A DNA stretch of 34,895 bases from Saliphagus infecundisoli (GTDB lineage Archaea; Halobacteriota; Halobacteria; Halobacteriales; Natrialbaceae), in the NCBI RefSeq assembly GCF_020177375.1, contig NZ_JAIWHV010000031.1:1-34895 (forward strand), written 5' to 3'. The position numbers were made by a program, and so were the translations under genes. The notes beneath the pieces are model-generated. The model was not told where the DNA came from. It did not search any database and was given only the letters and a program-made list of their open reading frames with translations. Below are positions 2,223 through 21,065 of the stretch, piece by piece; position 1 is the stretch's first letter, and each line of letters begins with the position of its first letter.

Positions 2223-2706
2223 GTAAACTACCCCGCCCTACTCGCTCCCTCCCGCCTTGGGGCGGTCGGTCACTCCTTGGGGGCGGGGTTTTATCGAAGC
2301 GACATTGTGCCCCGCGACCCATGCATGGACGTGGCTCGGCTTCCTCTTCCCGTCCACGCTTCGGGCGGGGGCTTTCAGGCCCGCCTTCGACCGTCCGCGT
2401 GGATTGTTCCCGCCGATTCAATTCCCGGTGTTCTCACGCTTTCCCCTCAAATGAGGGACGGGAGTCGAACCCGTTCGCGGTCGTCGTTCCCGAGTATAGG
2501 GTGCGAGGACGCGTCCTCGCACCACGGGAGCCAGTTTACTGGTGGCTCCTCCCCTCCCGGACTTGTGCCGGGAGAGAAGTACCTGGCATATAGGGCGGAA
2601 AGTGTCTAAAACTTGTGATTTCGCCCAACTTCGCAACGCGCTCCTCCCCTCCCTACTCGCGGCTTCACCGCTCGGTGAGGAAGGGGGCGCCGCGCTATCC
2701 GCCAAA
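2223..2706 (-). mobile_element. Block A: hairpin-bounded non-coding element, possible structured RNA
   Basis: Read on the minus strand, this ~485-bp block is a diverged copy of block B (20512-21014, plus strand). It has no convincing ORF. At its 3' end, arms CCCCGCCC (2231-2238) and GGGCGGGG (2281-2288) enclose an inner stem CCGCC/GGCGG. The 5' end (near 2640-2700) has a related hairpin with the same GAGTAGGG motif. Between them are a stem CCACGC/GCGTGG (2354-2359 with 2397-2402), a 5-bp hairpin at 2443-2458, a tRNA-T-arm-like stem-loop at 2458-2474, a perfect 24-bp palindrome at 2500-2523, and a 7-bp hairpin at 2527-2549. Several stems differ from block B by paired changes. The architecture resembles non-autonomous IS200/IS605 derivatives (PATE-like), with a cargo that looks like structured RNA. 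No transposase is encoded. Confidence 0.55.
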
Positions 2707-2954
2707 GCTGACGGGCAGCACGACCCCGAACTGATGTGCCTTCAGATTGGGTCGTGCGATCGGGAGAACTCACTGTAGCTCAATAGATGTATGGGTTGCA
2801 GGACATGCGAGCCCCACTCCGGTCTCGTCCCGTAGCGTTCCCTACCGACGGCCACACCATGCCGAGGCACGGGCCCGAGAGCGCACTCCCGTAGAATCGG
2901 GGCCGGTACGCCGGTTTGGAAGGCGGTCGCTGGATAGCGGTGGGAAGGCGTTCG

Positions 2955-20511: not shown

Positions 20512-21014
20512 TTCAGCAAACGGTAGCGAGGAGCCTCCTTCCTCAACGAGCGATCGACGGGAGCGAGTAGGGTGGAGAGGAATCGCGTTGCGAAGCTGGA
20601 CGAAACCGCAAGGCTTAGGCCGTCTCCGCCCGTTATGTGAGATACTGCCGTCCTCGCACAAGCCGGGGTCGGTAGGAGCCACGAGTAAACTGGCTCCCGT
20701 GGTGCGACGGCGTGGCCGTCGCACCCTATACTCGGGAACGACGACCGCGAACGGGTTCGATCCCCGTCCCCAGTGTTGGGGTAGAGTGAGAGAACACCGG
20801 GAATTAAATCGGCGGGACAATCCACGGAACGGATCCGGTAGGCGGGTCGCAGCAACAACTCCGACCCGCCGTCCGCCCGTGGACGGGAAGAGGAAGCCGG
20901 GCCGCGCCCTTGCATGGGGTTGCGGGGTACAATGTCGTTGCGGTAAAGCCCCGCCCTCAAGGAGTGACCGACCGCCGCAAGGCGGGAGGGAGCGAGTAGG
21001 GCGGGGTAGTTTAC
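20512..21014 (+). mobile_element. Block B: hairpin-bounded non-coding element, possible structured RNA
   Basis: This block is the inverted, diverged copy of block A (2223-2706). The 5' hairpin region (20536-20575) and the 3' hairpin (arms CCCCGCCC near 20949 and GGGCGGGG near 21007, inner CCGCC/GGCGG with GCAA loop) bracket ~400 bp without a convincing gene. Internal stems are GGAGCCA/TGGCTCC, GGTGCGACGGC/GCCGTCGCACC (20701-20725), a T-arm-like ACGGG/CCCGT (20751-20767), CCCCA/TGGGG (20768-20781), and CCACGG/CCGTGG (20822-20827 with 20877-20882). They match block A in position but differ by paired substitutions. The block follows the third dps gene by 35 bp. Whether it is transcribed is unknown. 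Confidence 0.55.
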
Positions 21015-21065
21015 GGGATGGTGGCCCTCAATCGTGATTGCCGACCTGTGCGCGCTCTTCTGTCG

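Follow-up and report, generated by a model that had tools for sequence, protein, structure and literature searches.

A protein-free IS200/IS605-type element of haloarchaea encodes a standalone, structured homologue of the TnpB ωRNA

The window analysed here is a stretch of 34,895 nucleotides of the haloarchaeon Saliphagus infecundisoli. It contains two inverted blocks that share a series of hairpins. What kind of element are these blocks, and what is the nature of the RNA that they might encode? The first-pass annotation described them as diverged copies of a non-autonomous element with a candidate structured RNA as cargo. Both blocks are present as described, and they are 80% identical. Sequence comparison placed element A at 2223-2707 (minus strand) and element B, of 498 bp, at 20517-21014 (plus strand). 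B was classified as a non-autonomous IS200/IS605-type element, a palindrome-associated transposable element (PATE), encoding a standalone ωRNA-like RNA, and A is a second copy of it.

All copies have the same layout: a TCA(G) target, a left palindrome, a TATA-like box, a non-coding RNA of about 370 nt, and a right-end hairpin. The TCAG target is located at the left junction (20513-20516 in B, plus strand; 2708-2711 in A, minus strand), and nearly every copy has TCA(G) at this place. The left junction comes after this sequence, and the right junction after TAGTTTAC. There are no terminal inverted repeats: the left end (LE) starts with CAAACGG/CTTTGGCGG, and the right end (RE) finishes with TAGTTTAC. 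The imperfect palindromes at both ends resemble the ends of TnpB elements in the same genome. The left palindrome of B (CCTCCTTCCTC...GGGTGGAGAGG, 20534-20580, plus strand) is common to the LE of TnpB element L024/L076; the right hairpin P9/P10 (20949-21006, plus strand), with a GNRA-like GCAA loop, is common to TnpB elements L026/L071. An RNase P RNA gene (RF00373, E 6.7e-25) lies near the latter (L026 309-701; contig C55 of this genome). In all copies the RNA would continue from the RE hairpin into the flanking DNA. The flank directly after the RE (21015-21030 in B, plus strand; 2207-2222 in A, minus strand) is the potential guide position if the RNA acts as an ωRNA. TnpB guides are about 16 nt in length, and the flanks were marked to this extent.

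No tnpB is present inside A, B or the other full-length elements (463-602 bp). None of the ORFs in blocks A and B matched Pfam, and the longest one is not conserved between copies; the blocks thus have no conserved protein. The S. infecundisoli genome (4.5 Mb, 76 contigs) contains 11 full-length copies and several fragments. Besides B, seven full-length copies have 99% identity to B, indicating that the element moved recently. The flanking DNA is different at every copy. One copy (L004, C55:99823-100324) is inserted within a tnpB gene. When this single copy (CAAACGG...GTTTAC after TCAG) was removed, a 404-aa tnpB ORF was restored with no target duplication, and the intact paralogue L076 has an uninterrupted TGTCAGAAGTGC at the matching site. 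By its C-terminus (LALKSGTLNVNG), the interrupted gene belongs to the tnpB lineage in which the related ωRNA is formed by the 3' end. Counting this genome, relatives were found in 11 of the 125 genomes of the family; in the order, they were found in 35 of 392 genomes and 26 of 96 genera. Haladaptatus halobius PSR5 and Natrinema gelatinilyticum BND6 are among the strains with full copies. An exact search of viral contigs with a core pattern gave no match. The earlier description of a non-autonomous, hairpin-bounded element therefore holds, since the element is repetitive, mobile and protein-free.

The RNA of B (about 372 nt, 20643-21014, plus strand) is supported by covariation and by two covariance models, R1 and R2; that of A (359 nt, 2223-2581, minus strand) is supported by R2 and by its fold. 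As single sequences, both fold better than their dinucleotide shuffles (z = -4.3 for B and -6.2 for A). On the plus strand of B, helices P1 (20645-20675) and P2 (20676-20696) come first. They are followed by P3 (20701-20725), P5 (20751-20767), P6 (20768-20781), the variable arm P7 (20822-20882), and the conserved arm P8 (20902-20925), which lies between the core and the right end. The three covarying stems of the annotation are all real helices. The first (GGTGCGAGGAC/GTCCTCGCACC in A, GGTGCGACGGC/GCCGTCGCACC in B) is P3; the second (CCACGC/GCGTGG in A, CCACGG/CCGTGG in B) is the base of P7; the third (CCCTC/GAGGG in A, CCCCA/TGGGG in B) is P6. On the minus strand, these helices of A are located at 2500-2523, 2354-2402 and 2444-2457, respectively. 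The structure extends beyond these stems and spans about 370 nt, including the right-end hairpin.

Covariation was analysed in an alignment of 31 diverged full-length homologues from many genera. A manual drawing on this alignment gave a structure with 61 pairs, which were then counted. Among the 31 copies, 94.8% of the cells in the drawn pairs are paired (shuffled mean, 87.3%), and 27 pairs show two-sided changes (shuffled mean, 16.0). None of the 500 shuffles equalled the observed value on any of five measures. When the partners were slid by 1-3 columns, pairing dropped to 39-52%. Since the structure was drawn on the counted alignment, a second control that preserves sequence relatedness was made: the inferred substitutions of each column were re-placed randomly on the tree branches in 1000 runs. 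The summed covariation was 5.18, compared with -5.66 +/- 0.61 (maximum -3.67) under this tree-aware null, which approximates R-scape by a home-made procedure and used 31 sequences. The test gave p < 0.01 for 22 of the 61 pairs. The annotation had named covariation no higher than its phylogenetic background as grounds for refutation, and this result answers that objection. An unrestricted scan of all pairs (APC plus the tree-aware null) is underpowered, with about 66,000 pairs and 31 sequences, and returned one structure pair at E < 0.05; the structure-restricted test was therefore used instead. P4 is outside the 61 counted pairs because it is nearly invariant in the elements; the tnpB-linked ωRNAs have one variable P4 pair, in which both partners change, from A-U to G-C. 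G-T cells (97) are more frequent than A-C cells (29), which indicates that the LE-to-RE strand is the folding strand. The mean pairwise identity is highest in the RE (0.90), the P8 arm (0.86) and the RNA core (0.78); the LE (0.70), the variable P7 arm (0.49) and the spacer (0.44) are less conserved. Selection on the RNA fold had been put forward from two copies. With covariation above the shuffled, slid and tree-aware backgrounds in 31 copies, it is now supported that the hairpin-bounded, non-autonomous element carries a structured RNA under selection.

The identity of this RNA was approached by covariance model searches in both directions. Model R1 represents the 5' core of the element RNA (175 positions) and was used to search 391 genomes of the class. 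B scored 206.6 bits against R1, which was built from the same element family. Beyond the elements, R1 found many weaker matches (E 1e-12 to 1e-4), including one in the S. infecundisoli genome, in the interval that separates a TnpB gene from its right end. Forty of the weak matches were inspected, and 34 are located at the 3' end of a same-strand tnpB. The tnpB-linked matches mostly overlap the coding end, usually by about 80-140 nt. This is the place of the haloarchaeal ωRNA, earlier named sotRNA, at the tnpB 3' end (PMC12558985). The remaining six include L190, L194, L195 and L206, which have no nearby TnpB and look like more tnpB-less elements; L198 and L208 have a strong R2 match, yet the search found no upstream tnpB.

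Model R2 was built from tnpB-linked ωRNAs only and was run over 49 sources. It matched A at 2420-2581 (E 2.9e-15), B at 20643-20805 (E 1.2e-14), and nearly all of the elements (E 1e-6 to 1e-21), as well as the ωRNA of the TnpB element L076 from the same genome (E 6.5e-20). Nine other TnpB loci among these sources gave no R2 match in their ωRNA regions. Helices P1, P2, P4, P5 and P6 are common to the elements and the tnpB-linked ωRNAs. The elements add P3, inserted in the core, and P7 and P8 between the core and the RE; all three are absent from the TnpB ωRNAs. The element RNA is therefore a homologue of the ωRNA of one tnpB clade, by sequence and by structure, in both search directions. The matches partly reflect shared DNA descent from tnpB, besides constraint on the RNA. 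In position and orientation the element RNA resembles the ωRNA: it occupies the right end of IS200/IS605-type elements and points into the flank. Because the RNA is homologous to an ωRNA of the tnpB 3' end, it is not arbitrary cargo. It has no physical linkage to tnpB, and for this reason it was categorized as an ωRNA homologue and not as a canonical tnpB-linked ωRNA.

Searches of Rfam at the gathering score gave no match in the window. The sotRNA families RF02656 and RF02657 were unmatched, and they were also unmatched up to E 1 in the loci with A, B and L030 and in the TnpB loci. Group I/II intron, RNase P and box C/D identities were dropped, as Rfam gave them no support. The sole Rfam match on the element up to E 1 is the DUF3800-X RNA (RF02984), with 32.6 and 29.4 bits, below the gathering score of 38.2. 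The likeness covers only the terminal 70 nt (20944-21013 and 2224-2293), that is, the RE hairpin with GGGAGC(A/G)AGUAGGG. No DUF3800 gene (PF12686) is present in the genome. With this absence and the sub-threshold score, the DUF3800-X identity was rejected. The DUF3800-X RNAs may themselves be right ends of the IS200/IS605 type.

Several further loci were observed. In L116 (1300-1720) and L117 (1300-1680), the transposon ends that enclose the same RNA core are of another type (CCCACGACT..AGTCGTGGGTAGCTTAC), and P3 is missing. The core and the ends are thus separable, exchangeable modules. A second PATE-like family has related left and right ends and a diverged ωRNA-like core. It includes L017, L018, L019 and L020 in this genome (C22, C76, C75 and C44), and also L194 and L206 elsewhere, near which TnpB was not found. 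This family was matched by R1 at E 4e-8 and weaker and, in this genome, by R2 at E 6e-6 to 5e-5. L190 and L195, a near-identical pair at two places of genome G253, form a further tnpB-less ωRNA-like locus (R2 E 1e-11 and 2e-10) with a long additional arm around P5/P6. In L135, L143, L144, L145 and L138 and in the TnpB loci L204, L212 and L220, the RNA or RE contains hairpin-rich insertions of tens to >100 bp (GTTCGAGAGAG..CTCTCTCGAACC and similar). These insertions are reminiscent of the SMR-A elements of Haloquadratum, whose targets are PATE palindromes.

The element core also retains a trace of TnpB. One frame reads SHKSGSVGATSKLA...SGTTTANG, compared with LKSGSGRATSQLALKSGTVNANG at the C-termini of TnpB proteins. 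Stops are present in this frame in 15 of 28 copies, and the codon-position entropy in the elements is flat (0.54, 0.51, 0.51); on both grounds, a coding role of the frame was rejected. The tnpB-linked copies have the entropy pattern of coding sequence (0.52, 0.42, 0.71). In the simplest history, most of tnpB was deleted and the ωRNA segment was kept.

A promoter signature lies upstream of the RNA. In B it is the BRE/TATA-like sequence CGCAAGGCTTAGGC (20607-20620, plus strand), about 28 nt upstream of the RNA start, and in A it is CACAAGTTTTAG (2606-2617, minus strand). An ungapped TATA-like box (TTTA/TTAA/TTAG) was found within -32..-24 of the RNA start in 24 of 31 copies, and almost nowhere else between -60 and -12. 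None of 34 tnpB-linked ωRNAs has such a box in the same window. This distance is as expected of an archaeal promoter, with transcription predicted to begin on or beside the first conserved nucleotide; a conserved TACTG stands about 28 nt after the box.

Taken together, the best explanation, which we regard as fairly probable, is a tnpB-deleted element that has kept and elaborated its ωRNA under its own promoter and that uses TnpA and TnpB in trans. Such an element would have arisen when a tnpB gene lost most of its length but not the 3' segment, which also serves as ωRNA; the promoter and the arms P3, P7 and P8 would have been gained later. It would move by a borrowed Y1 transposase (TnpA) that recognises the palindromic ends and the TCA(G) target. 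The RNA would be transcribed from the LE to the RE and into the flank, so that every copy has its own guide, and it might then be loaded into TnpB provided by other elements. At the empty donor site, made up of TCA plus guide, this TnpB would cleave the DNA, and repair would restore the element. Cutting of the donor site by TnpB has been proposed for transposon retention (summarised in PMC11870625). Homology and structure are observations; transcription, binding of TnpB in trans, guided cutting and retention are what we infer for the element. It probably borrows both TnpB and the transposase; if so, it would be parasitic on an RNA-guided nuclease system.

Candidate helpers are encoded in the same genome. 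Three intact Y1 TnpA are present and could serve the element in trans. The candidate TnpB is L076, which has the same LE and RE type as the elements and the TnpB domains PF07282 and PF01385. L076-like TnpB was found in all 31 tested element-bearing genomes. It is so common in the order (320 of 392 genomes, 82%) that the co-occurrence is only consistent with borrowing, and not strong evidence for it; as proof it was rejected, since 31 of 31 is only mildly above this background. For the comparison of targets, left ends of the tnpB-linked loci were searched with a regular expression, and none was found.

The main rival is a decoy or antagonist. The RNA might be an ωRNA mimic that binds and titrates the TnpB of rival or parent elements, so that TnpB spares the element's own excision sites or stops favouring competitors. 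The ωRNA fold with the extra arms, the element's own promoter signature, and the copy inside an L076-like tnpB gene would all suit such a role. P3, P7 and P8 might block TnpB or imply another partner, and they leave room for a decoy. However, the RE hairpin and the exact flank-adjoining position have been kept, and these are needless for a pure decoy beyond transposition. The RE is also the most conserved part of the element, although recognition by TnpA could also explain this. The decoy is considered unlikely.

The element could also be a decaying remnant of the tnpB 3' end with no RNA function, conserved only through the need of transposition for its ends. It does have a clear trace of the TnpB C-terminus in one frame, and a PATE with a disrupted tnpB end has been seen earlier (PMC3119063). 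However, compensatory changes occur in the internal helices P1-P6, far from the ends, and the core is more conserved (0.78) than the LE (0.70) or the spacer (0.44). Moreover, the distance of the promoter box is fixed, and the core has been kept with quite different ends in L116/L117. A relic without function is strongly disfavoured.

A further possibility is selection on single-stranded DNA, in which the structure would serve peel-and-paste transposition or the control of folding. The TnpA of IS200/IS605 elements acts on single-stranded ends with hairpins, and the folding strand would be the top strand under either reading. However, TnpA needs only subterminal hairpins, yet about 300 internal nucleotides covary; the upstream promoter signature and the match of the internal fold to the tnpB-linked ωRNA also argue against selection on DNA, which we consider highly improbable. 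It is scarcely credible that the RNA works with a non-TnpB protein such as DUF3800: the RE of B resembles RF02984 (32.6 bits, E 0.002), as do 12 places in the genome, but the score is below the gathering value, the internal RNA matches the tnpB-linked ωRNA, and the DUF3800 gene is absent from this genome despite the recently mobile copies.

If the reading as a tnpB-deleted element with a retained ωRNA is correct, TnpB would be sharable between elements, and the ωRNA, not the protein, would be the unit retained when an element is stripped down. This would also give a reason for the strong conservation of the element interior. TnpB is the ancestor of CRISPR-Cas12. The element would be a natural case of a guide RNA and a nuclease becoming separate genes, a step that is usually invoked for the origin of CRISPR-Cas12, and which could be tested in genetically tractable haloarchaea. 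It would also provide natural trans-acting ωRNA scaffolds with their own promoters. We are slightly inclined towards a more general reading, in which widespread haloarchaeal protein-free elements, consisting of ends and a promoter-driven, elaborated guide RNA, hijack TnpB in trans: each inserted copy would programme another element's nuclease to hold it in place, as a parasite of RNA-guided transposon retention. The families of this class would then include the A/B, L116/L117, L017/L194/L206 and L190/L195 types.

The element was finally compared with known systems. Standalone ωRNA loci have been noted in surveys of OMEGA (IscB/TnpB) systems. They share with the element a guide RNA without an adjacent nuclease gene; here, in contrast, a multi-copy transposable element that occurs across many genera carries the RNA as its only cargo. 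The ωRNA/reRNA of TnpB (sotRNA) also adjoins the RE, has the flank as potential guide, and shares the P1-P2-P4-P5-P6 fold and homologous sequence. The known ωRNA overlaps and is linked to the tnpB 3' end, whereas the element here has no tnpB, and its RNA has its own promoter signature and the arms P3, P7 and P8. The PATEs of Haloquadratum walsbyi are short, with no transposase gene, no terminal inverted repeats and homogeneous copies; they have near-terminal palindromes like IS605-type ends and make no target duplication (PMC3119063). For one of them, HqIRS71, the description includes a disrupted C-terminal region of tnpB (PMC3119063). The present element is similarly too short for a transposase, with no conserved protein, no terminal inverted repeats, IS605-type near-terminal palindromes and no target duplication (in one copy, L004). 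The assignment to the PATEs rests on these described traits and not on sequence identity to the HqIRS elements. The PATEs were described in 2011, before ωRNA was known, as non-coding and degenerate (PMC3119063), and have so far been treated as debris of the IS605 type. In contrast to that description, a covarying ωRNA homologue is present in the element here, together with a promoter signature and extra arms. A literature search, mostly without subscription journals, found no report of tnpB-less mobile elements carrying an ωRNA. PATEs and ωRNA are each known; their union as a promoter-bearing, elaborated and mobile guide-RNA gene appears to be new.
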